DNA from: a virus
IMG/VR virus record: IMGVR_UViG_3300008450_007994
Coordinates: 1-32,529 of that record
Length of the DNA: 32,529 nt
Strand: one strand, 5' to 3'
The notes under the pieces are model-generated. The model had not been told where the DNA came from, did not search any database, and worked only from the letters and a program-made list of their open reading frames with translations. A program made the position numbers and the translations under genes. Shown piece after piece: positions 6,840 to 25,895 of this stretch; position 1 is the first letter of the stretch; each line of letters opens with the position of its first letter.

Positions 6840-7010
6840 TTAATTTAGTTCTAGCATCTTTACATGAAAAGAACATGGATCTCCACCATCATCCCATTCC
6901 TGCATTTCTTCATCTGTTAATGGTGGTCCATCATGAGTATCACAAAATACTTCTGATATCCAACCATTATCTTGTCCAATCTTCATCCAATCCCAATAAT
7001 TTAAATCCAT
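6840..7010 (-). CDS. conserved actinophage-type small acidic protein, 56 aa
   Basis: ATG 7010 overlaps the thioredoxin stop. The protein reads as a known actinophage small-protein pattern: W-x-x-W-M-K near the start, G-W-I-S-E-V-F-C-D-T-H-D-G-P, then E-E-M-Q-E-W and D-D-G-G-D-P-C-S-F-H-V. Two Cys and two His could bind a metal. The family recognition is from memory and its function is unknown. It replaces the N-terminal extension of the next frame downstream. Confidence 0.75.
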   Translation of the reverse strand: MDLNYWDWMKIGQDNGWISEVFCDTHDGPPLTDEEMQEWDDGGDPCSFHVKMLELN

Positions 7011-7306
7011 TGACTGAATTCCTTTACGATTAAATGTTTAGGCATAGCGCCTATTATGGTCTTAATTGGTGCACCATCTTCAAATAATACCACAGTTGGT
7101 ATTGAGAATACTGAGAATTGAGAAACTTTGATAGGATTTTCATCAGAATTAACTTTAAATACACTAATCGCATATTCTGACTCTATGTCCTGCATTATCG
7201 GCGAAATCCTTTTGCATGGAACACACCACTCAGCCCAAAAATATACTAGGCACTTTTTAGAAGAATTGATTTCCTCATCAAAGTTCAAGTCCGTCAAATC
7301 AATCAT
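7001..7306 (-). CDS. thioredoxin-like protein
   Basis: 101 residues with a complete thioredoxin fold: first strand (KKCLVYFWAEW), active-site W-C28-V-P-C31, cis-proline in S-I-P-T, and the closing G-A and helix. The active site is WCVPC instead of WCGPC, which would shift its redox potential. It should reduce disulfides in the cytoplasm; phage partners could be a ribonucleotide reductase or a polymerase outside the window. ATG 7306 overlaps the upstream stop as ATGA, and the gene is the fourth in the operon from 8001. Confidence 0.9.
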   Translation of the reverse strand: MIDLTDLNFDEEINSSKKCLVYFWAEWCVPCKRISPIMQDIESEYAISVFKVNSDENPIKVSQFSVFSIPTVVLFEDGAPIKTIIGAMPKHLIVKEFSQWI

Positions 7307-8008: not shown

Positions 8009-8037
8009 ATTATACCTTAAACTTGAATGTATGTAAA
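8009..8037 (-). promoter_or_regulatory. leaderless promoter TTTACA-17-TATAAT
   Basis: TTTACA (8032-8037), 17-nt spacer, TATAAT (8009-8014), ending seven bases before ATG 8001. It overlaps the 3' end of the Ntn-hydrolase gene and would drive the six-gene operon down to 5089. Confidence 0.75.
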
Positions 8038-8571
8038 TGGGGGAGATACGCTCATTGAAAATTCTGCAGATGCTTCTAATGCTGCCTTTAGCCTCATCTT
8101 AGGGTTCTTTTGATTTTTTGTCGCATGCAATGCGCCTAGGGCAAAGAACGCTCCGCTACCCTCTGCCATATAATTAACTATGTTTTCTCCGACATGAAAG
8201 TCTTCATCTATAGTAAAGATTCTTCCCTCTACACCAATTATAAATATTCCACCTGAGTCTTCTTCTGAGCCACCAATTGTTCCATAACCATTGTCTTTAA
8301 ATGCTTGTTTTACTGAATCAATAAATTTTGTACGCATAAACTTATCTAATCCTGAATTAGTTTTAGTAGGGGTATATTTTGGAGGGTTCCAATTATATTG
8401 CAATATCTGACCCATTCTGAAGCTATCTGTAAAAGCTACACCATACTGCCCAACCTTAAAAACTTTTGGCTCTCTTCTGGACAGGATCCACCCAGTTTTA
8501 TCATCTGATGCGGCATGGTCGGATCCCATATAAACGGTCCCATTTTGAGCAATAGCAACTATGCAGGTCAT
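8017..8571 (-). CDS. HslV/proteasome-like Ntn hydrolase
   Basis: 184 residues. After Met removal Thr2 would be the N-terminal nucleophile (T-C-I-V-A-I), with Asp18 in G-S-D-H and Lys36 in E-P-K-V-F placed like the proteasome-beta/HslV catalytic set. A conserved segment E-G-S-G-A-F-F-A-L-G-A-L-H-A near residue 140 supplies the usual small-residue turn. I know this type from actinobacteria and their phages. No ATPase partner (HslU, Mpa, ClpX) is seen here, so it may act alone or on a host unfoldase. Protease activity and substrate are inferred. The start codon is six bases after a TATACT. Confidence 0.8.
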   Translation of the reverse strand: MTCIVAIAQNGTVYMGSDHAASDDKTGWILSRREPKVFKVGQYGVAFTDSFRMGQILQYNWNPPKYTPTKTNSGLDKFMRTKFIDSVKQAFKDNGYGTIGGSEEDSGGIFIIGVEGRIFTIDEDFHVGENIVNYMAEGSGAFFALGALHATKNQKNPKMRLKAALEASAEFSMSVSPPFTYIQV

Positions 8572-9395: not shown

Positions 9396-9678
9396 ATCTT
9401 ACTCCGTAAGATTCTATTAGTTTTTTAACTTTTGAAACGTAATCAATTACCATTTCTTTTTTATTACCACTGAACTGCAAAAAGTTATCCTCGTAAAGTC
9501 TGATTGCTAAAAATTCTGGATACATAACAATATCTATAAGCAAATCATATGTAGGCTTTGGTATCTCTCTTACCTTTTTACGCATCTCATCTGTATAAAA
9601 TACTGGCTTGTTTGGATCACCAGTCCATTCATTTACCCCGAACTTAAAGTGATTCTTACTTCTATCTATAAAAGTCAT
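9358..9678 (-). CDS. hypothetical protein, 106 aa
   Basis: ATG 9678 overlaps the WhiB stop as ATGA. Mixed alpha/beta sequence: N-terminal Phe-rich segment, a helix (TDEMRKKVREIPKPTYDLLI), a strand (FLAIRLYEDNFLQF), and a closing helix (VIDYVSKVKKLIESYG). Family not recognised. It is co-transcribed with whiB. Confidence 0.65.
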   Translation of the reverse strand: MTFIDRSKNHFKFGVNEWTGDPNKPVFYTDEMRKKVREIPKPTYDLLIDIVMYPEFLAIRLYEDNFLQFSGNKKEMVIDYVSKVKKLIESYGVRCELEGAPSDRVL

Positions 9679-9974
9679 TTTTTTAGCCTTTTCCAGACAT
9701 CTGGTGTCTTATGAATATTTTTATTTGTATCAATAGATCCTGCTGATAAATATATTCCTCCCCAAACACCGTACTCATTATTTGTCTGCCCTGCTAACAA
9801 GCAATTCTTTTTTACTGGGCAGGATATGCATGCTTGATCAATATTTTTTGCTATATTTATATCTGTTTCGTATTGATCAAAGAATAGGTTAGTGTCCATT
9901 CCTTTGCATATAGCAAAATCAAACCAGTCAAAATCCTCTTTGTCTATACCTAAATCATTTAAAATGCTTGACAT
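9675..9974 (-). CDS. whiB: WhiB-family transcription regulator
   Basis: 99 residues with the four cluster-binding cysteines C23, C49, C52 and C58 in the WhiB spacing (C-x25-C-x2-C-x5-C), followed by G-V-W-G-G (69-73), the turn that contacts the sigma factor region 4 in this family. WhiB proteins carry a 4Fe-4S cluster and are confined to actinobacteria and their phages, where they redirect host sigma-A promoters or block host WhiB. The basic DNA-contacting C-terminus (TPDVWKRLKK) is present. The 5' end overlaps gene 9955-10188 by 20 bases. Strong host-range evidence. Confidence 0.92.
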   Translation of the reverse strand: MSSILNDLGIDKEDFDWFDFAICKGMDTNLFFDQYETDINIAKNIDQACISCPVKKNCLLAGQTNNEYGVWGGIYLSAGSIDTNKNIHKTPDVWKRLKK

Positions 9975-14446: not shown

Positions 14447-14635
14447 TTACTTAGGATTATCGGTTTTATAAAAGCCTTGGCCCTTAAATTGTATGCCAAA
14501 TGGGGTGAAGTGTCTAGACATTAAAGACTCACACTCTTCACAAACATATCCTGGGTCATCCTCAGAGATAGATCTTGTCACAGAAAGAAGTGCATGTGAC
14601 TCATCTTCTGTACACTTATACTCATATACTGGCAT
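14447..14635 (-). CDS. FmdB-like zinc ribbon protein, 62 aa
   Basis: The start MPVYEYKC and the end G-I-Q-F-K-G-Q-G-F-Y-K-T-D match the FmdB regulatory-protein family. The ribbon has Cys8 and a CEEC pair; the partner of Cys8 (normally C-x2-C) is missing and is replaced by a D-E-S-H segment, so His14 may be a ligand. FmdB-type proteins are small putative regulators of unknown detail. ATG 14635 overlaps the end of the oxygenase gene by 14 bases. Confidence 0.8.
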   Translation of the reverse strand: MPVYEYKCTEDESHALLSVTRSISEDDPGYVCEECESLMSRHFTPFGIQFKGQGFYKTDNPK

Positions 14636-15215
14636 TATTAGAATTAACCCCTATCATTGGCATAACGTCTATAAGTAAATGTACTCTATTTTCAACACCT
14701 TCATTTTTAACAGAATGTGGTTTAGAATTATTAATTTCCCAACACTCTCCCGCCTTCATATTTTTTACTTCATCTCCTACCTGGAAATAAACATTTTTAT
14801 TTGTAATAATTGGTATATGAAATCTTCTAACTATATCCAAATAATCCCCACTGTCTTGATGTTGCAATATCTCTTTATTTCCTGGAAGATTAATCAAAAC
14901 TACTTTACCCATTTTACCACCAATAATTGATTCTAAATAATTTACTATTGGCTTAACAATTTCCCACAATTCTATATCTAAATATCTAGACTCTGGCATG
15001 TATTTATCTTCATACTGCCAGTCATTTGAGTGTTCAATTAAAAAATATGTATGGGTACTTTTATGAGGCCAATACATATCTTGACGAGAAGTATCAATAA
15101 ACCACTCTGAATTTAATAATCTAACTTTATTCTCTATTTCTGAAATGTCAAAAGTTTTATGAAGTTTAAAATTAAATTCTTCATTTTGTTTATTAAAATA
15201 TCCTACACTTCGCAT
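14622..15215 (-). CDS. Asp/Asn beta-hydroxylase-type 2OG-Fe(II) oxygenase
   Basis: 197 residues with the family's cupin core: H119-x-D121 (Q-H-Q-D-S-G-D), R-R-F-H-I-P-I-I-T strand, a V-Y-F-Q strand, the distal metal ligand His167 (K-P-H-S-V-K-N) and Arg177 (N-R-V-H-L-L-I-D), which binds 2-oxoglutarate. It should hydroxylate a peptide Asp/Asn, a proline or a small substrate in the cytoplasm using O2 and 2-oxoglutarate. Substrate unknown. A structured leader (15221-15285) precedes ATG 15215, and its ribosome site AGAGG lies within that structure. Confidence 0.82.
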   Translation of the reverse strand: MRSVGYFNKQNEEFNFKLHKTFDISEIENKVRLLNSEWFIDTSRQDMYWPHKSTHTYFLIEHSNDWQYEDKYMPESRYLDIELWEIVKPIVNYLESIIGGKMGKVVLINLPGNKEILQHQDSGDYLDIVRRFHIPIITNKNVYFQVGDEVKNMKAGECWEINNSKPHSVKNEGVENRVHLLIDVMPMIGVNSNNASI

Positions 15216-15286: not shown

Positions 15287-15703
15287 TTATTTAATTTTTA
15301 GAATCTTTGGCTTCTTCTCTGCTGGAACATTTCTAATTACTCTGATATGTAGCATACCATCCTTAAGTTCAACATTAGAAACTTCCATGTACTCGCTTAG
15401 TTCAAAGATTCTAGTAAATTTACGTGCAGCTATTCCTTTATGAACAACCTCTGCATCAATTACCTCTGTGATTTCACCAGTAATCCAAAGACTTCCGTCC
15501 TCTATAGATACTGTTAAATCATCTTTTGTAAACCCAGCAACTGCTAGAGTTAGCTGATAGTTATCTTCGTCTAACTTAAGTAAATCATACGGCGGGAAAG
15601 CAGTATTGTTTACCCTACTTAGACTATTAAATCGTTCCAACTCTCGGTTGAAACCAATAAAAAATGGATCCTTAAAAAGATCCATAGCAAATTGTGTTAC
15701 CAT
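15287..15703 (-). CDS. hsp20: Hsp20 small heat-shock protein
   Basis: 138 residues with the alpha-crystallin domain: strand Y-Q-L-T-L-A-V-A-G-F, the segment D-D-L-T-V-S-I-E-D-G-S-L-W-I-T-G-E, and the closing D-G-M-L-H-I-R-V near residue 120. The C-terminal I-x-I-type motif (ILKIK) for oligomer contacts is present. It binds unfolding proteins without ATP. Phages with small heat-shock proteins are known, mostly cyanophages. ATG 15703 has AAGGAGG upstream, and a strong promoter lies at 15763-15791. Confidence 0.92.
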   Translation of the reverse strand: MVTQFAMDLFKDPFFIGFNRELERFNSLSRVNNTAFPPYDLLKLDEDNYQLTLAVAGFTKDDLTVSIEDGSLWITGEITEVIDAEVVHKGIAARKFTRIFELSEYMEVSNVELKDGMLHIRVIRNVPAEKKPKILKIK

Positions 15704-17837: not shown

Positions 17838-18134
17838 TTATATGTCATCCTCAATAGGAATGATTCCGTATTCTTTGGCAACCATCCTGCCTTCTTCTGT
17901 TAACTCAAACTCTGCCTCTAAATTTTCATTGTATGTTATGTTTACTAGGCCCATATCAAATAGCTCCATGAATATCTTATCAATTTCTTCTACGTGAACC
18001 TCCCACAACTCTGGGGCAAGGTCCTTAGCCAGATCAGTTATTTTAAATATAAACTCGCCATCTTCCTCTATACCAACAACCTCAATAACACCCATTTGAA
18101 GATACTCGTACATCTTGTCGTCGCTGTCTTCCAT
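17838..18134 (-). CDS. winged-helix-like small protein, 98 aa
   Basis: ATG 18134 is chosen over a longer frame that runs into tRNA-Leu; it has AAAGG five bases upstream and starts 13 bases after the tRNA. The sequence alternates helices and a strand-turn-strand (ITDLAKDLAPELWEVHVEEI, IFMELFDMGLVNITYNENLEAEFELTEEG), the outline of a winged helix with the wing before the last helix. The protein is acidic, so it may bind protein rather than DNA. It lies between tRNA-Leu and tRNA-Arg in one transcript. Confidence 0.7.
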   Translation of the reverse strand: MEDSDDKMYEYLQMGVIEVVGIEEDGEFIFKITDLAKDLAPELWEVHVEEIDKIFMELFDMGLVNITYNENLEAEFELTEEGRMVAKEYGIIPIEDDI

Positions 18135-18147
18135 GTCTACCTTTCTG

Positions 18148-18220
18148 TACCCCCAGTGGGATTCGAACCTACGCTGTATGGATTTTAAGTCCACTGCCTC
18201 TACCGCTGGGCTATGAGGGC
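18148..18220 (-). tRNA. tRNA-Leu (TAA) with a short variable loop
   Basis: 73-nt cloverleaf: acceptor GCCCTCA/TGGGGGT, D-arm with GCC/GGC, anticodon stem GTGGA/TCCAT with loop CTTAAAA (anticodon UAA), variable loop of five bases (ACAGC), T-arm GTAGG-TTCGAAT-CCCAC (one mismatch), discriminator A. Bacterial leucine tRNAs normally have a long variable arm, which is absent here. An extended -10 promoter lies directly upstream. Confidence 0.85.
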
Positions 18221-18263: not shown

Positions 18264-18836
18264 TTAAAAACTTATACATCTTGATTTTGCAAGGGAGTAC
18301 AGTCTATAATGCTCAGAAAGATCCATTTGTTTTACATAATCCATATAATTGTTGTAATCTAAATCACCTTTTGAGCTAATTAGTTTAAATGAGTTTTGTG
18401 TCTTTGAATACCAATCTTTGTAATCTTTAACTGAATCAGTTACAAAATTTATATCGCCGTTAAACTCTTTACATATATGCTCTACGATCTTGCTAGTGTT
18501 ATTAACCAAGTCTTCAAAGCGAAAAAACATCGATGCTTTATCTAAAACAAAATTATAATGCTCTATGTATTGATCTGGCCTATACCAAGCAAGTCCGTTT
18601 TTTTCCATTGTGTTTATTGATGAAATGCAATCTACTGGGTTTCTAACTATTGTTATTATTGGATCCGATAACATTTTTTGGTAAAGAATTTCTTTAGGAT
18701 CATTTGCTTCTTTCATATCGTAATGAATGAAATTAACTTTTAAATCTGTATTTGTATTTATATACCAATATAGCCAATGTCTGCCCGATCTAGGGTATGT
18801 CAACATAGTTATATTATTATCTTTGCTTACATCCAT
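18264..18836 (-). CDS. PAPS-dependent sulfotransferase-like protein, 190 aa
   Basis: Two signatures of the sulfotransferase fold: T-Y-P-R-S-G-R-H-W (13-21), the 5'-phosphosulfate loop, and I-V-R-N-P-V-D-C-I-S-S (63-73), the 3'-phosphate contact with R65 and S72/S73. A third region F-R-F-E-D-L-V (about 105-111) matches the following strand-helix. It is short for the family (usually 250 or more), so the acceptor-binding part is minimal. It would move sulfate from PAPS to a hydroxyl or amine of a sugar, lipid or protein. It starts 17 bases after tRNA-Met and follows the carbamoyltransferase. Confidence 0.82.
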   Translation of the reverse strand: MDVSKDNNITMLTYPRSGRHWLYWYINTNTDLKVNFIHYDMKEANDPKEILYQKMLSDPIITIVRNPVDCISSINTMEKNGLAWYRPDQYIEHYNFVLDKASMFFRFEDLVNNTSKIVEHICKEFNGDINFVTDSVKDYKDWYSKTQNSFKLISSKGDLDYNNYMDYVKQMDLSEHYRLYSLAKSRCISF

Positions 18837-18852
18837 TATATTTCTCTTTCTG

Positions 18853-18926
18853 TGCGGAATGTAGGACTTGAACCTACGATTACCGAATTATGAGTTCGGG
18901 GCTTTAACCAACTAAGCTAATTCCGC
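18853..18926 (-). tRNA. tRNA-Met (CAT), possibly Ile2
   Basis: 74-nt cloverleaf: acceptor GCGGAAT/ATTCCGC, anticodon stem CCGAA/TTCGG with loop CTCATAA (CAU), T-arm GTAGG-TTCAAGT-CCTAC, discriminator A. A G1-C72 pair argues against initiator tRNA. CAU can be elongator Met or, with lysidine, Ile for AUA codons; the window does not decide. Its 5' end overlaps the last codons of the carbamoyltransferase gene by 10 bases. Confidence 0.92.
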
Positions 18927-20398
18927 CTGCCTGTTAGTATATTATATCCATAATGTTCCTGCCAGTCAATAGCATCTTGATTGTCATTTAATAATGGTTG
19001 ACCTTTTATATTTAAGCTTGTGTTTAATAGCATTGGCACTCCAGTTGCCCAATAAAACTTTCTTAAAGCCATGTGAAGACCTGGATGCTGATCTTTATTT
19101 ACAGTCTGGACTCTAGATGTTCCGTCTACATGCACTACAGATGGAACCTTTTCTGGGTATTTGCATTTAACTGTATATTGCATATAAGGAGATGCAAAAT
19201 TCATATCAAACCATTCGCTAGCAAATTCTTCTAGTACTACTGGGGCAAACGGTCTAAACAGCTCTCTTTGCTTTATTAGATTTACCTTATCTTTAATGTT
19301 TGGATCTCTAGGATCTGCCAATATACTTCGATTTCCTAAAGCTCTAGGTCCATATTCTGCTCTTCCTGAAGCAACCGCCACTATTCCATTTTGCAATATA
19401 CCATCAACAATTTTTTGAGTTGGATATTCATCGCTAATGTTGTGTCCGAGGTACGGCCCTTTCCAATCTATATGATTTCCATATAAAGCTGCTGCAGCTC
19501 CCAATGAGCTTCCAGCATCACCTGGATTTGGCATTATCCAAACTTCTTTAAATATATTCCATAAGATTGTATTTGCTTTGCTGTTTAAAGCACATCCACC
19601 CATAAAAACTAAATTTTTTTTACCAGTAATATTATAGGCCATATGCATAAACTCGCTAAGTCTTATCTCGTATACTTTTTGAACCGCTGCAGCCAGATCA
19701 AATTTTCTTTGCTCAAACCACTCTCCAATATAGCCAGTGCCCTCTTGTCCCGCAAAACAGGGGACATGGCCCCAATCAAAATCTTTTATACCAGTATGAA
19801 AATTGTATTTTTGCCAATTGTATTTTGGAAAATATTCGTTTACTTGTTTAAAATATCTATCTGGGTTTCCATACGCTGCCATGCCCATCATTATATATTC
19901 TTCTTGATTTGGAATAAGACCTAGTAGCCCTGTGAATGCGGAATAAAATAATCCAAAGCTGAGGGGGTAGTTTTGCTTAAATTTTAATTTAATGCTTGAG
20001 CCTTCTCCAATCCATACTGTAGAGGTATTATATTCTCCAATTGAGTCTAGTACAACAATAACTGCATCATTAAATTTACTTGTATAGTAACCAGCTGCTG
20101 CATGTGAATAATGATGAGAAAAATATTTAATTGGTAGGTCCATAGGAATATTAGGCTTCCAGTCTCCAGCTCCGCCACGGAGTAACAGCCTTGACCTCTT
20201 TAGCTGAGGTTTTTCATAATAAGCAATGTGTGTTGGGATTCCATAATTAAGCATATCTTCATATATATCTGCATTGTTATACCAGTCATTTTTTCTCTTG
20301 CTATATCTTTCTGAATGAGCGGAAAAAAGTATCTCTCCATCTTTTAACAGAGAAACTGATGCGTCATGAGATGTTTCATTGATTCCTAAAATTATCAA
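18917..20398 (-). CDS. NodU/TobZ-type O-carbamoyltransferase
   Basis: 493 residues, slightly short for the family (550-600). N-terminal Kae1-like domain: G-I-N-E-T-S-H-D-A-S, H95-H96-Y-S-H99 metal site, V-V-L-D118-S-I-G-E and G-M-A-A-Y-G-N-P; then F-M-G-G-C-A-L-N-S-K. C-terminal YrdC-like-adjacent region: G-R-A-E-Y-G-P-R-A-L-G-N-R-S-I-L-A-D-P-R. Such enzymes use carbamoyl phosphate and ATP to make carbamoyl-AMP and carbamoylate a hydroxyl of a sugar, an antibiotic or, in some phages, a hydroxymethyl base. TTG 20398 has AAGGGG nine bases upstream. The stop is inside tRNA-Met. Confidence 0.9.
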   Translation of the reverse strand: MIILGINETSHDASVSLLKDGEILFSAHSERYSKRKNDWYNNADIYEDMLNYGIPTHIAYYEKPQLKRSRLLLRGGAGDWKPNIPMDLPIKYFSHHYSHAAAGYYTSKFNDAVIVVLDSIGEYNTSTVWIGEGSSIKLKFKQNYPLSFGLFYSAFTGLLGLIPNQEEYIMMGMAAYGNPDRYFKQVNEYFPKYNWQKYNFHTGIKDFDWGHVPCFAGQEGTGYIGEWFEQRKFDLAAAVQKVYEIRLSEFMHMAYNITGKKNLVFMGGCALNSKANTILWNIFKEVWIMPNPGDAGSSLGAAAALYGNHIDWKGPYLGHNISDEYPTQKIVDGILQNGIVAVASGRAEYGPRALGNRSILADPRDPNIKDKVNLIKQRELFRPFAPVVLEEFASEWFDMNFASPYMQYTVKCKYPEKVPSVVHVDGTSRVQTVNKDQHPGLHMALRKFYWATGVPMLLNTSLNIKGQPLLNDNQDAIDWQEHYGYNILTGRRN

Positions 20399-20412
20399 CT
20401 ATCTAGACCCCT

Positions 20413-20505
20413 TTAGTAAATAAAATCACGTCTTTTTTTATTTTTTCTTTTTGCCCTTAAATTATAAAAATAAATATATACTCTTTTATAAAAATCACTA
20501 ATCAT
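20413..20505 (-). CDS. basic mini-protein, 30 aa
   Basis: ATG 20505 overlaps the stop of the SGNH gene by 8 bases. 30 residues: aromatic first half (SDFYKRVYIYFYNL), basic second half (RAKRKNKKRRDFIY). Very short basic peptides ending in F-I-Y often precede carbamoyltransferase genes, as I recall, which supports this frame; the ribosome site is weak. It could be a membrane-surface or partner peptide. Confidence 0.5.
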   Translation of the reverse strand: MISDFYKRVYIYFYNLRAKRKNKKRRDFIY

Positions 20506-21529
20506 TGTTTTTCCAATTTTCATTAAAAAATTTTTCAAAGGCTTCGGCGATATGAATATTTTTGTGCCCTCCAAAATGTGAGTGCTCTGCCCCGTACTGC
20601 CTATCTAAAGCTGCATGAAATTGTTTTCCCCAAGCATTTTTATAGTCTTCGTGGCAGTTTACTATAGTTTCATTTTCGATATAATATATTTCTTCAGACC
20701 GCTTATCAAAAGCCCAGTTATGAGAATACATATTTATCATATTTTTGTATGTTCCTGGGTATTGATCATTAACTTGAGACAAAACATAGTACTGCTGCTG
20801 GTGCCATGTGCCCCATGCAAACTTGATTCCTGCAATATCACAATACTGCTGCAACATTTGTACATACATGCTAGAATAAAATTGAGGAATCTCTGATGGT
20901 ATTACATCTTCTGCAATTAATGGCTTAGATAAAAATTTTTGATTTCCTGGTATCATACATATATTGGCTGTTTGCCTAAAAGGTTCATGCCACGGAGTTG
21001 GAATTTTTTGATGCTCTTCTAGCCTATCAAATGCGCCATGCTTTAGGTACTTAGGATTTGATACTATTTCAAATCTATTAAATACTGGAAATAACGCAAA
21101 TATATACTTCGGGTGTCCAAATTCTTTAAAGTACGCAAATATGTCTCTGACTTGTTTTGTTACGCCGCTTCCAGGCACACCTAAATTAGAATGAGTAAGC
21201 CCTAATTTATTTGAAAGTATATCGCCCCACCTAAACTCTTCATCCAAGCCAGTGCCATATGTATGAGAACATCCAGTTATAAGTATATCTGTTCCAGAAG
21301 AAAATTCTTTTGACCTATAAGTTTTTTTATTATGATGATACTCTATGCCTTCATGAATATAGTCAAATTCTTTTATGCCATCTAGCAGTATATTTGTGTA
21401 TATCTGTCTAGCAGTAAGATCTGTATACTGATAGTTATCATTGCTTTTTTTATCAAGCATAGCTTGAAGTAGTGTGCCGTCAAAAACATCGCTAACCTCT
21501 TTAACACTTGCTAAATCTATTTTAGCCAT
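20498..21529 (-). CDS. SGNH/GDSL-type hydrolase-like protein, 343 aa
   Basis: Block I: I-L-I-T-G-C-S88-H-T-Y-G-T-G (nucleophile Ser88 in the GxS context). Block II/III: H-S-N-L-G-V-P-G-S-G (Gly and Asn that stabilise the oxyanion). Block V near the C-terminus: S-H-F-G-G-H322-K-N, with His322 as catalytic base, although the usual Asp three residues before it is replaced. Family members are esterases and O-acetyl or acyl transfer enzymes. It sits upstream of the carbamoyltransferase, so it could process the same acceptor. ATG 21529 overlaps the gene before it. Confidence 0.72.
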   Translation of the reverse strand: MAKIDLASVKEVSDVFDGTLLQAMLDKKSNDNYQYTDLTARQIYTNILLDGIKEFDYIHEGIEYHHNKKTYRSKEFSSGTDILITGCSHTYGTGLDEEFRWGDILSNKLGLTHSNLGVPGSGVTKQVRDIFAYFKEFGHPKYIFALFPVFNRFEIVSNPKYLKHGAFDRLEEHQKIPTPWHEPFRQTANICMIPGNQKFLSKPLIAEDVIPSEIPQFYSSMYVQMLQQYCDIAGIKFAWGTWHQQQYYVLSQVNDQYPGTYKNMINMYSHNWAFDKRSEEIYYIENETIVNCHEDYKNAWGKQFHAALDRQYGAEHSHFGGHKNIHIAEAFEKFFNENWKNND

Positions 21530-21776
21530 ATATTTTACCGTCCATTTCTTTAATTATAGTTTTTTCAACAATTTGTTGTACAAAATCTGAAAAATGTTTT
21601 CTAATTGACCCAGAAGGTCTTGATCCAAAAGATGTCCACAGTCTTTTATATTCTACAATATTTGCAAATGTGGTGGGGCACACGACTATACCATTGTATT
21701 CTTTTAGTATTGTTGGTAGCGGAACGTGTTTACTGCAACATTTGCATTCTTTTGCTTTTTCTTGATATGTGCTCAT
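21522..21776 (-). CDS. zinc-binding protein, 84 aa
   Basis: ATG 21776 overlaps the terminase stop as ATGA. A C-K-C-C cluster (11-14), a later single Cys (V-V-C-P) and nearby His suggest a zinc site; the C-terminal half is helical and basic (IRKHFSDFVQQIVEKTIIKE). The position directly after the large terminase is often that of a small homing or packaging helper, but no family was recognised. Confidence 0.65.
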   Translation of the reverse strand: MSTYQEKAKECKCCSKHVPLPTILKEYNGIVVCPTTFANIVEYKRLWTSFGSRPSGSIRKHFSDFVQQIVEKTIIKEMDGKIYG

Positions 21777-23605
21777 AGTATTTCCATATTCTCTAGCGCT
21801 CTTGACATTTTATCTATCTCCCCCGCCAATCTTTCAGGCATTCTTGGTGCTCTAATTAAGTTGTCTCTGTAAACTTCTTGATCTTCCTCTAAATAATTAT
21901 CTTCAACAAACGACTCATATGTATGTATATTTACTTCATCATTTATATTAGGCCTTGTCCTGCTAATTGAATTATATACCGAGCCGCATACTGCGTCAGC
22001 TAAGTCTTTAGACCCTTTTCTAGGGTGATCTACTCTATCTCTCATAATTTTAAGCTGAAGCAATTCATCTATAAGCAAGGGTATGTGCGGGCCGTGAAGT
22101 CTTTCTTCTAGAACTACCATTGCCATATCGTCATAATGTTTTTTAGCAACAGAAAGTATCTCTGTATTAATTCCATATTGTTTTAACTGCTGCATCATAT
22201 CGTGTGAGTTCCACCTGTCAAATGTGCAGACCGATATATTAAATCCTCTAGTCCTTAAGGACAATATGTAATCTTTAACTTCTGTAAAATCTACAGACTT
22301 ATCTGGTGTTGGCGTCCAATACCTGACAGCATCTACGGATACTATTGGGGCTGGCTGAGAGTATTCGTTAGTCACCCTTACATTAACCCAATTCTCAACA
22401 TGAGCCATTGCTACTGCACAGTGGTCATGCTTTTGCGCTAAGTCTACGTGTAAAAAATATTTTTTATCTGGATCTGGCTTAAACCATTCTTCAAGCCTAC
22501 CAAATTTGTCTACTGCAAGTCCTGTGTTATTAAAAGCTTTCTCGACTTTTTCTCTAGACTTAAAGAATGCATCAATCATCTCTGGTGGCATGCATGCGAA
22601 TCTTCCTAGGGCATCTAGCGAATTCTTATAGAATGCCGTTTTAAAGTCCTCTATACTTCTAGTAGGATTTACTTCCCATGTAGGTCTTCTCAAAGCATAC
22701 ACCTTCGGAATTAAATAAGAATTAATATGGTCTTCTTCCCATTCAATTTCAAATTCATTGCCCTCTGTTCCGTCTGGCAAATCTTCATCCATCTTAAACT
22801 TATGCGACCTAACTATAGTTTCTTTGTCAGCAATCACTGAGTTATAAAACTTTTGAATAGGATCATTTTTAAATCTTGGAAATGAAAGTAAAATAACTTT
22901 TCCAAAGTCTGGGAAACGAGAATCCACTGAGGCTCTGTACATTTCATAAATTGCATCAGCTGTTTTTGCCTGGTCATGACCCGTCGTATTCTCAATAGCA
23001 AATCCTGAAATCTCGTCAAGAATTACAACGATTACGTTATACCCCTCCCATGCCTCACGCTCTGAGTGACCAGAGTGTACTGTTATAGCCTTGTCAAATT
23101 TCATCTCAGAGGCTTTTGGATCATACTTGCCAACGAACCATGGTGAGCGGTCTATTCGTGTCTTAAATCCCTTAAAGAATACGTTATTGGCCTGCTGTGA
23201 GTTTATTGCTATATTAAGAATATCAATTGAATCTCCAGGAGGTTTTCCATAATATGTTGCTGGATCTTTTAAGCATAAAAGTAAATAAACAATATATGCA
23301 ACAGCTATCGTCGAAGAATAATCTTTACCAGAACCTTTGCCGAGCTGGGCAATAACTTCTGTACATGTTTGTTTATATATTCTTTCGCCTTCTTGCTCTC
23401 CAAATAATTTCTTTAGGGTGGCTTCTTTATAGATCTGAGAGCTTTTTTCAATTAAAGTATATTGTAATTCAGAAAGTGGTGGCAGTCCTAGGTAGTCTGG
23501 GCTAGTTACAAATGTTCGTAAATCTACTGGACGCTCTTCAAACTCTTCGCCATCCAATATGTCAATTAAGTCATCAAAACTAAATTCCACTGACATTTTC
23601 CTCAA
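21773..23605 (-). CDS. terL: large terminase subunit (TerL)
   Basis: 610 residues. ATPase: Walker A G89-K-G-S-G-K94-D in A-Q-L-G-K-G-S-G-K-D, Walker B V-I-V-V-I-L-D197-E198, and a coupling motif near L-L-S-F-P-R. Nuclease: D388 in H-V-D-L-A-Q, D463 in F-D-R-W-N-S, and D537 in K-D-L-A-D-A-V, the RNase H-like metal triad. It packages DNA into the prohead from the portal. The first codon is TTG 23605, with AGAGG nine bases before it; ATG at 23596 is an alternative. It overlaps the small-subunit gene by 26 bases. Confidence 0.93.
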   Translation of the reverse strand: MRKMSVEFSFDDLIDILDGEEFEERPVDLRTFVTSPDYLGLPPLSELQYTLIEKSSQIYKEATLKKLFGEQEGERIYKQTCTEVIAQLGKGSGKDYSSTIAVAYIVYLLLCLKDPATYYGKPPGDSIDILNIAINSQQANNVFFKGFKTRIDRSPWFVGKYDPKASEMKFDKAITVHSGHSEREAWEGYNVIVVILDEISGFAIENTTGHDQAKTADAIYEMYRASVDSRFPDFGKVILLSFPRFKNDPIQKFYNSVIADKETIVRSHKFKMDEDLPDGTEGNEFEIEWEEDHINSYLIPKVYALRRPTWEVNPTRSIEDFKTAFYKNSLDALGRFACMPPEMIDAFFKSREKVEKAFNNTGLAVDKFGRLEEWFKPDPDKKYFLHVDLAQKHDHCAVAMAHVENWVNVRVTNEYSQPAPIVSVDAVRYWTPTPDKSVDFTEVKDYILSLRTRGFNISVCTFDRWNSHDMMQQLKQYGINTEILSVAKKHYDDMAMVVLEERLHGPHIPLLIDELLQLKIMRDRVDHPRKGSKDLADAVCGSVYNSISRTRPNINDEVNIHTYESFVEDNYLEEDQEVYRDNLIRAPRMPERLAGEIDKMSRALENMEIL

Positions 23606-24477: not shown

Positions 24478-25137
24478 TTATTCCATTTCTCTATATAGTC
24501 TTTTTAAACCTTTTAAGGTTCCAATATCCATATATTGACCTCCTGGTTTTACAGCACGAACATCTAAACTCATATCAATCCATTCCTGAATTTGTTTTCC
24601 TGGATGATCTAAATCTGTATCTACATATCTTATCAAATTTTTTCTAAACAGCATAGTGCCCCACATATACTCATATTCGCAGTCTTGAACTTTATCTTTA
24701 GAAGACAGAACCTTATCTCCAGATAAAGATATCTGCCCAACTCTTCCTTTTAAATCATCTGTACATTTCCATGCCCCAAGAACTACATCGCCTTCTGACT
24801 TCATCATTTCTTTATATATGTTTGTCTGAGCACCCAATATAAATGTATCTGGCATTCCAATAAGAACTGTATGGTTATGTTCTCCTACCATAAATTTTAC
24901 AGCATCAGACATGGTTGAAGGCTCACGCACGATAAGTTTAATATTCATATCCATATTCTGAATAATAGGAACCCATTCAGCTCTGGTAGAAACTATAACC
25001 TCATCACAAACTTCTAACATTTGCTCCACATGCCATTGCAATAATGATCTTTCGTCTGATATTGGAAGGCAAAACTTAGGTATACCTCCGACTCTAGAGG
25101 CTTTACCTGACGCTGGTAGAACTCCTACAATGGGCAT
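24478..25137 (-). CDS. sugar-phosphate nucleotidyltransferase
   Basis: 219 residues from ATG 25137, which overlaps the glycosyltransferase stop (TAATG) and has GGAGG upstream; an in-frame GTG at 25149 is less likely. Signature: G-V-L-P-A-S-G-K-A-S-R-V-G-G-I-P-K-F-C-L-P, the nucleotide-binding loop with the conserved Arg and Lys; G-M-P-D97-T-F, the metal-binding Asp; W-G-T-M-L-F-R near 160. It belongs to the glucose-1-phosphate nucleotidyltransferase group and makes an NDP-sugar from NTP and a sugar phosphate. It is paired with the glycosyltransferase upstream. Confidence 0.85.
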   Translation of the reverse strand: MPIVGVLPASGKASRVGGIPKFCLPISDERSLLQWHVEQMLEVCDEVIVSTRAEWVPIIQNMDMNIKLIVREPSTMSDAVKFMVGEHNHTVLIGMPDTFILGAQTNIYKEMMKSEGDVVLGAWKCTDDLKGRVGQISLSGDKVLSSKDKVQDCEYEYMWGTMLFRKNLIRYVDTDLDHPGKQIQEWIDMSLDVRAVKPGGQYMDIGTLKGLKRLYREME

Positions 25138-25895
25138 TATTCCTCCCACTCGTGAGGATTAAATCCGTTAGGATAAGATTCATTTACCATCGGATCTTTT
25201 TTCCAAGCAATCCATCCTTCTTCTCTATCGTCTCCCCAATATAGATGAACTACATCTCTATCTAAAAGTCTTTTAGCATCTTCTCCGTGAAAAATATAAA
25301 CCTTATTGTCTTTTAAAAATGGCATTTCAATAAGCTCAGAAGCCCATTCGTTAATGTGTTTTTGATATGGATCTACTCCAAGCTCACGGTATAAGGCATC
25401 TGTAAACATCTGAACATCAGTATAGTAATGAACCATATGATTATGCTGAATAATTCCTTCGGAACATCTTTCAACGCAAAGATCTATGGCTGCCTTTAAT
25501 AGTGGATGCCCAGCCTTTGCAGCAATTGTTTGAGTTGCTAGCCACGGAGTATCTTTTTCAATATCTAAAATCATATCGTATTCAGGATTTAGCCATGTGT
25601 CTACTGGGACCTTGCAGTGCGTATCCATGTCCGCATATATTCCACCATGTATGTAAAGAATGGCAAATCTCCAAAGACCAGCTTTCATTACACCTAAAGG
25701 CAAATTTACATATGCTTCATATGTTTTTGAATCAAAATGTTCTTTAAAGAAATTTTCTCTATCCTGTCCGCTCATGTACCCATAAGTATATTCTGGATTT
25801 TGATAAGTCCATGTTCCTACGCTTTCTTTAGCGTAAGCTGGCAATTCGTCAAAACTTGTTTCATATGTCTGCCAAATATTTTTTTCTATGCTCAT
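25137..25895 (-). CDS. GT32/OCH1-like glycosyltransferase
   Basis: 252 residues. N-terminus N-I-W-Q-T-Y-E-T matches the I-x-Q-x-W-x-T start of the DXD sugar-transferase family (Gly_transf_sug). Core: K-A-G-L-W-R-F-A-I-L-Y-I-H-G-G-I-Y-A-D-M-D-T (71-92), with D89-x-D91 binding the metal and nucleotide sugar. A later segment H-Y-W-G-D-D-R. It would move a sugar from an NDP donor to a glycan, teichoic acid, protein or DNA base. ATG 25895 has AAGGAG upstream, lying in the end of the HTH gene. Confidence 0.88.
   Translation of the reverse strand: MSIEKNIWQTYETSFDELPAYAKESVGTWTYQNPEYTYGYMSGQDRENFFKEHFDSKTYEAYVNLPLGVMKAGLWRFAILYIHGGIYADMDTHCKVPVDTWLNPEYDMILDIEKDTPWLATQTIAAKAGHPLLKAAIDLCVERCSEGIIQHNHMVHYYTDVQMFTDALYRELGVDPYQKHINEWASELIEMPFLKDNKVYIFHGEDAKRLLDRDVVHLYWGDDREEGWIAWKKDPMVNESYPNGFNPHEWEE

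Follow-up and report, generated by a model that had tools for sequence, protein, structure and literature searches.

The window analysed here is an entire viral contig of 32.5 kb (IMG/VR record IMGVR_UViG_3300008450_007994, 32,529 nucleotides). On its minus strand, downstream of the terminase gene terL, it contains genes for an SGNH hydrolase, a basic micropeptide of 30 amino acids (aa) and a NodU/TobZ-type carbamoyltransferase (CTase). In relatives defined by their terL, these three genes are gained or lost together. We suggest that they form a three-part phage carbamoylation module (CTase, micropeptide ending in [FY]IY and SGNH hydrolase) which acts on a probable glycan, a reading to which we give a probability of roughly 0.42. 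A nearby sulfotransferase gene, as well as GT32 and nucleotidyltransferase genes on the other side of terL, are separate passengers. A preliminary description of the window had proposed all five enzymes as a single tailoring set. The CTase module, with its catalytic residues kept, is what remains of that proposal; the five-enzyme set does not hold.

The CTase gene (18917..20398, minus strand, 493 aa) has a TTG start codon, preceded by AAAGGGG at 20408-20414. Its product matches the Pfam domains Carbam_trans_C (E=3.5e-54) and Carbam_trans_N (E=6.6e-38), with scores of 183 and 131 bits against cut-offs of 27 and 24, respectively. It also matches PHROG 1601, annotated as 'Nol-like carbamoyltransferase' (E=1.3e-106). 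The motifs of GdmN and TobZ can be aligned in it: HHxxHA, VLDxxGE, GDAG, EYGPRALG, RPFAPVV and NTSLN. Most of these residues are invariant across 27 relatives. Judged by its sequence, this is beyond doubt a class III (NodU/TobZ) carbamoyltransferase, as first described. It is 72–84% identical, over its full length, to 80 relatives in IMG/VR. The nearest relative in annotated collections is found in the marine virus AG-345-D19 (42% identical), and the nearest bacterial one in a Streptomyces genome (L180, 45% identical). In a phylogeny, the window CTase clusters with both of them and with phage C48C1.

Two samples were used in order to ascertain which genes travel with the CTase. The first one consists of 80 CTase relatives fetched with their flanks, besides contigs of the same phage, and all their proteins were clustered. 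SGNH genes, in one to three copies, are found in 68 of these 80 loci and lie directly beside the CTase in 59. Twelve loci have no SGNH gene; in all of them except L077 the contig is cut close to the CTase, on one side or both. The second sample avoids selecting on the CTase: it includes the nearest relatives by terL, 42 of which have at least 4 kb after this gene. Both CTase and SGNH genes are present in 15 of them, CTase only in one, SGNH only in none and neither in 26 (Fisher p=1.6e-10, an optimistic value). The micropeptide follows the same distribution, with 14 of the 16 CTase-positive loci and one of the 26 CTase-negative loci (p=3e-8, also optimistic). The sole CTase-negative match is found before terL, at the edge of its contig.

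The micropeptide gene (20413..20505, minus strand) codes for MISDFYKRVYIYFYNLRAKRKNKKRRDFIY. The preliminary description had listed this peptide and made no use of it. The suspicion that it was spurious was overturned by tblastn and hidden Markov model searches: tblastn revealed a counterpart with 53% identity in another relative, and profile iteration led to a conserved family. To count its members we applied a simple rule: 18–48 codons, rich in lysine and arginine, with an end of the form [FYW][IVTL][YFW]. In 67 of the 80 CTase loci there are 71 peptides with the strict end [FY][IVT]Y-stop, located beside an SGNH or CTase gene. They include 45 distinct sequences of 25–36 aa, with a median lysine plus arginine content of 32%. 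Variants ending in FMY or YNY are found in further loci. Two unrelated, chance-like matches are all that appear in 65 CTase-negative relatives. The chance rate of the rule among small reading frames of CTase-negative loci is 4/8968, and of 1653 longer phage proteins not one has the end [FY][ITV]Y.

Most of these peptides (55 of 71) share one base with the next SGNH or CTase start, in a TAATG-type coupling. The codons of the end motif vary synonymously (TTT/TTC, ATA/ATT/ATC, TAT/TAC), so selection on the peptide end acts at least partly at the protein level. The possibility that this end is a mere Shine-Dalgarno spacer was considered, AAG and AGG codons being often found just before the motif. 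It was rejected as the sole cause because of the synonymous variation and because the peptide persists without a following gene start: in L084, L032 and L051 it trails an SGNH gene with no subsequent CTase start.

The SGNH/GDSL hydrolase gene (20498..21529, minus strand, 343 aa) has no Pfam match. Its AlphaFold model has a mean confidence (pLDDT) of 90.6, and all top PDB matches found with Foldseek are SGNH/GDSL folds. Across 66 paralogues with 20–56% identity, the predicted catalytic residues S88, D309 and H318 are kept in about 98% and G120 of block II in 95%. Where block III would have the asparagine of the oxyanion hole, the conserved residue is R152; no column of this block reaches 75% asparagine. 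The identification first made by eye is thus upheld by the model fold and the conserved Ser/Asp/His residues.

A similar arrangement is found in marine phages. The gene order in AG-345-D19 is SGNH-SGNH-peptide-CTase, and its relatives, collected in a scan, comprise 80 marine loci. Upstream of their CTase, 35 of 58 loci encode peptides such as MNPIAKLIRWIKGEYKLWKLRRQDPYIYEDD, with a ...DPYIYE(D)n end; SGNH homologues occur near the CTase in 41 of 46. In L305, L306 and L310, the micropeptide and the CTase come after a tandem array of as many as six SGNH paralogues. Bacterial CTase loci contain genes for SxtJ, GDSL hydrolases and nucleotide-sugar or glycosyltransferase enzymes. Thirteen of the bacterial CTase loci inspected also encode a small protein of 49–66 aa in which P-F-[IV]-Y or G-S-F-I-Y stands close to the C-terminus. 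The four we tested all belong to DUF5989, a small membrane protein with the end ...APFIYTLF. The Bacteroidia genome L181 has the gene order SGNH-CTase-SxtJ-like-DUF5989.

A motif [FY]IY beside the CTase is therefore shared by three otherwise unlike families of small proteins, since it is found in the freshwater peptides, the marine peptides and bacterial DUF5989. A proline precedes it in the marine peptides, not in the freshwater ones. The function of SxtJ, SxtK and DUF5989 is given as unknown in the published sources consulted, and the shared motif provides a concrete, mutable hypothesis, either of docking or of a precursor. We found no description of the CTase-SGNH-micropeptide phage unit, or of the link between FIY and DUF5989, in the literature searched; the component enzymes are of known kinds.

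The module might work as follows. The CTase would use ATP and carbamoyl phosphate to form carbamoyl-AMP, from which an acceptor would receive the carbamoyl group on a hydroxyl (or amine). This acceptor would most likely be a glycan, either lipid-linked, associated with the membrane or exposed at the surface, given that the CTases of bacteria and cyanophages are found in the company of sugar genes; those of cyanophages are neighbours of ADP-heptose-type sugar genes and tail fibres. The micropeptide has a hydrophobic or amphipathic N-terminus, a polybasic middle and a C-terminal Phe/Tyr-Ile-Tyr. Its FIY end may dock the cytosolic CTase, keeping it at the membrane. Such tethering is suggested by the fact that DUF5989 is a membrane protein and that the freshwater peptides have an amphipathic stretch (moment 0.61) and a polybasic run. 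The same docking role is proposed for DUF5989 beside the bacterial CTases. The SGNH hydrolase would edit the same acceptor, either removing an acyl group to free a hydroxyl or removing the carbamoyl group. This deacylase or decarbamoylase role is put forward by analogy with SxtL, whose own role is only proposed (PMC2679770). The sulfotransferase would be an interchangeable extra, which could sulfate the same product in the window phage. The likely benefit would be a changed surface chemistry of the host or the virion, for example against superinfection. According to this reading, an abundant aquatic phage group carries a compact chemical-decoration cassette, and its micropeptide component has gone unrecognised, hidden by the customary length cut-offs for open reading frames.

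The closest known parallel is the group of tailoring genes sxtI, sxtJ, sxtK, sxtL and sxtN of cyanobacteria, in which a CTase, small partners, a GDSL hydrolase and a sulfotransferase are found in one cluster (PMC2684587, PMC2679770). Gene sxtK has just 165 bp, and the GDSL product of sxtL has been proposed, not proven, as a decarbamoylase (PMC2684587, PMC2679770). The sxt cluster also contains a gene for adenosine phosphosulfate (APS) kinase, and an APS-kinase-like gene is present in 18 phage relatives. The phage loci differ in that no SxtJ-like gene was recognised beside their CTase, their peptide shows no detectable homology to DUF5989 and their CTase and sulfotransferase genes are unlinked; nothing here points to a toxin. 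The bacterial CTase-SxtJ-DUF5989 loci, found in Bacteroidota and others, resemble the phage module in that the CTase adjoins a small P-F-[IV]-Y protein, with SGNH/GDSL and glycan genes close by; they differ in that DUF5989 is transmembrane, while the phage peptides are short and polybasic. Cyanophage operons with a Nol-like CTase (P-SSM2, S-CAM1, S-SSM7) also place a phage CTase amid tailoring enzymes. Their flanks, however, are GT9-like and heptose-pathway genes, no SGNH gene or FIY peptide was found in them and their CTase is about 30% identical to that of the window. The protein T4-GC302 beside cyanophage CTases was considered as a possible SGNH hydrolase and rejected: it is a weak GT9-like protein.

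Several observations weigh against a membrane-bound, glycan-directed module. The sampled contigs are related, and some are near-identical, which makes the p-values optimistic. The freshwater peptides are not transmembrane: their median hydropathy over 15 residues is 0.4, versus 3.3 for DUF5989. Pfam gave no match to DUF5989 (PF19451) for two freshwater peptides, that of the window being one of them, nor for two marine ones, so that the FIY common to both may be due to convergence or coincidence. No export signal is seen in the phage SGNH proteins, nor a signal peptide in that of the window, unlike the SGNH protein adjoining the CTase in L181, which has an N-terminal hydrophobic stretch. Finally, the CTase of Streptomyces L180 has as neighbours an EPSP-synthase-like protein, a radical SAM enzyme, an aminotransferase and a DUF6071 protein with GCSMTYG; this locus looks like a small-molecule cluster rather than a glycan locus, and a small-molecule acceptor is possible for this reason. 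With an SGNH profile (A1), the SGNH proteins of neither L180 nor L181 were securely detected, and only a short profile alignment provides a link with L180.

A different explanation, unlikely in our opinion and still the best placed of the alternatives, is that the micropeptide is the precursor of a ribosomally synthesized and post-translationally modified peptide (RiPP). It would have a basic leader and a Phe/Tyr-Ile-Tyr core, which the SGNH hydrolase would free and the CTase would carbamoylate, yielding a small effector made by the phage. The gene arrangement agrees with this: a small precursor with a conserved C-terminal core adjoins modifying enzymes. Crocagin provides a parallel (PMC10070186). 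Its 21 aa precursor CgnA has a lysine-rich leader and a C-terminal core of three residues, Ile-Tyr-Trp; the hydrolase CgnD cleaves the core off and the carbamoyltransferase CgnI modifies it (PMC10070186). The two systems thus resemble each other in their short basic peptide, which ends in an aromatic tripeptide, and in having an SGNH-fold hydrolase and a carbamoyltransferase. CgnD appears among the Foldseek matches of the phage SGNH model (8a2n, E=9.7e-4), but other SGNH enzymes match it with better E-values. Genes for 2-oxoglutarate (2OG)-Fe oxygenases (cluster c11) are moderately enriched near the CTase, in 12 of 16 positive loci versus 8 of 26 negative ones (p=0.01, uncorrected). No exporter and no CgnB- or CgnE-like protein was identified in the phages. 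We place this explanation second since in the marine peptides and in DUF5989 the motif is not terminal, residues continuing past [FY]IY; moreover DUF5989, a conserved membrane protein beside CTases, fits docking better than a precursor. If it were true, phages infecting the dominant bacteria of freshwater and the sea would encode their own RiPP-like pathway with an SGNH peptidase.

It is rather improbable that the SGNH protein is a virion esterase, which deacetylates the host glycan at entry and leaves later re-decoration to the CTase, with the peptide acting as a leader for translational coupling. Tail fibres do contain SGNH domains (a weak match to PHROG 5240, E=0.0016), and the overlap of most peptides with the next start codon would suit a coupling leader. 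The SGNH genes, however, are located between terL and the CTase, not among tail genes. Besides, the peptide end is conserved at the amino acid level and, as noted above, is found in three loci with no CTase start after it.

The joint set of the preliminary description, in which CTase, sulfotransferase, SGNH, GT32 and nucleotidyltransferase act on one acceptor in the manner of NodU and NodH, has somewhat poorer prospects still. The five genes lie within about 8 kb in the window. The SGNH, peptide, CTase, tRNA-Met and sulfotransferase genes are present in the order claimed, all on the minus strand. The sulfotransferase gene (18264..18836, minus strand) codes for a short protein of 190 aa, an accessory outside the conserved module. 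Its Pfam matches are below threshold (E=0.002 and 0.005; 18.9 bits versus 27 and 16.8 versus 22). Its model (pLDDT 79) has 29 PDB matches at E<=0.001, all of them sulfotransferases, and the top ones all use 3'-phosphoadenosine-5'-phosphosulfate (PAPS), in agreement with the identity suggested previously. A 5'-phosphosulfate-binding loop, TYPRSGRHW, is present, and the SG and RNP motifs are invariant in six sequences.

The distribution of these genes does not correspond to a set. The sulfotransferase family (c40) is found in the same slot in seven other contigs (L085-L091), all of them without CTase or c2 SGNH genes. It appears in one of the 80 CTase loci, and a more distant sulfotransferase-like family (c77) in four more. 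GT32 genes are present in 9 of 13 loci with CTase and 9 of 16 without it (p=0.70), nucleotidyltransferase genes in 4 of 13 and 7 of 16 (p=0.70). Relatives carrying these genes singly, the outcome that the preliminary description had named as refuting its set, are thus found for the sulfotransferase as well as for GT32 and nucleotidyltransferase. Co-occurrence mapping therefore links the CTase with the SGNH gene and the peptide, not with the other three genes. The parallel with rhizobial NodU and NodH holds for the chemistry, O-carbamoylation and sulfation; it is a loose one, as no joint CTase-sulfotransferase cassette is conserved in these phages. The combination of sxtI, sxtL and sxtN, which shows that a CTase, a GDSL protein and a sulfotransferase can share one molecule (PMC2679770), is closer. 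Sulfotransferase-like genes near the CTases of AG-345-D19 and C48C1 were noticed by eye; Pfam gave E=0.045 for one and no match for the other, and they were not used.

Modification of the phage's own hydroxymethyl-pyrimidine DNA, also raised at the outset, is very improbable: a phage CTase of the same superfamily acting on 5-hydroxymethylcytosine is known from MetaGPA (PMC8670742), but the window CTase shares just 25% identity with it over part of the length and belongs to a different, distant clade (the MetaGPA enzyme being a long branch of unsure exact place), neither the partner thymidylate synthase nor a dCMP hydroxymethylase is found in 11 relatives of up to 117 kb (the window being a 32.5-kb fragment), no TET/JBP protein is above cut-off in 8 relatives, and an SGNH partner would make no sense for DNA modification.

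Some related phage islands contain more short proteins with a GDS motif, such as L036:11659-12402 (c33) and L052:3921-4538 (c68), which are probably other SGNH families; c33 adjoins the sulfotransferase in L086-L090. The APS-kinase-like genes mentioned above (cluster c20, 18 loci, for example L079:15294-16055) code for a protein in which an APS-kinase domain precedes a region that weakly matches cytidylyltransferases; this protein might supply PAPS.

The module is located in a variable cargo island. The anchor gene terL (21773..23605, minus strand, identified by PHROG terminase matches) is directly followed by a gene for a conserved 84 aa protein with no function assigned (21522..21776, minus strand, cluster c5, 65 loci). 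This is the left border of the slot, and it intervenes between terL and the SGNH gene, a detail missed in the preliminary description. The right border in the window phage is a conserved acidic protein of 118 aa (17838..18194, minus strand, cluster c6, 65 loci). In relatives the slot contains genes for GT61 and GlcNAc-type glycosyltransferases, 2OG oxygenases, SDR, methyltransferase or AhpC proteins. A tRNA-Met gene (anticodon cat, 18852..18926, minus strand, detected with ARAGORN) has its 5' end in the final 10 bases of the CTase gene (18917-18926), an overlap that the preliminary description had also missed. These bases include the TAG stop and the last codons of the CTase, as though the C-terminus of the enzyme had been reset by insertion of the tRNA.

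The window is a fragment of a larger phage genome, since many relatives span 80–117 kb. Its terL is 61–64% identical to those of Streptomyces phages of the Stanwilliamsviridae (64% for Phredrick and relatives), which also share the RuvC/Cas4/terL gene order. This relationship and a WhiB gene (9675-9974) point to an actinobacterial host; we infer a freshwater host of the Nanopelagicales type. The GT32 (25137-25895) and nucleotidyltransferase (24478-25149) genes lie on the opposite side of terL from the CTase and SGNH genes. In Phredrick (L093, 3148-4872), two glycosyltransferases and a nucleotidyltransferase are found between ruvC and terL. This stretch may be an old site for glycan genes, because the Phredrick genes occupy the same place as the GT32 and nucleotidyltransferase genes of the window.

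Elsewhere in the window there is a 2OG oxygenase of the aspartyl/asparaginyl-hydroxylase type (14622-15215), and several genes are host-like. A GroES/Cpn10 co-chaperonin-like gene (1467-1781) and a thioredoxin-like gene (7001-7306) were recognised by eye, while an HslV-family peptidase (8017-8571) and Hsp20 (15287-15703) were identified with PHROG.

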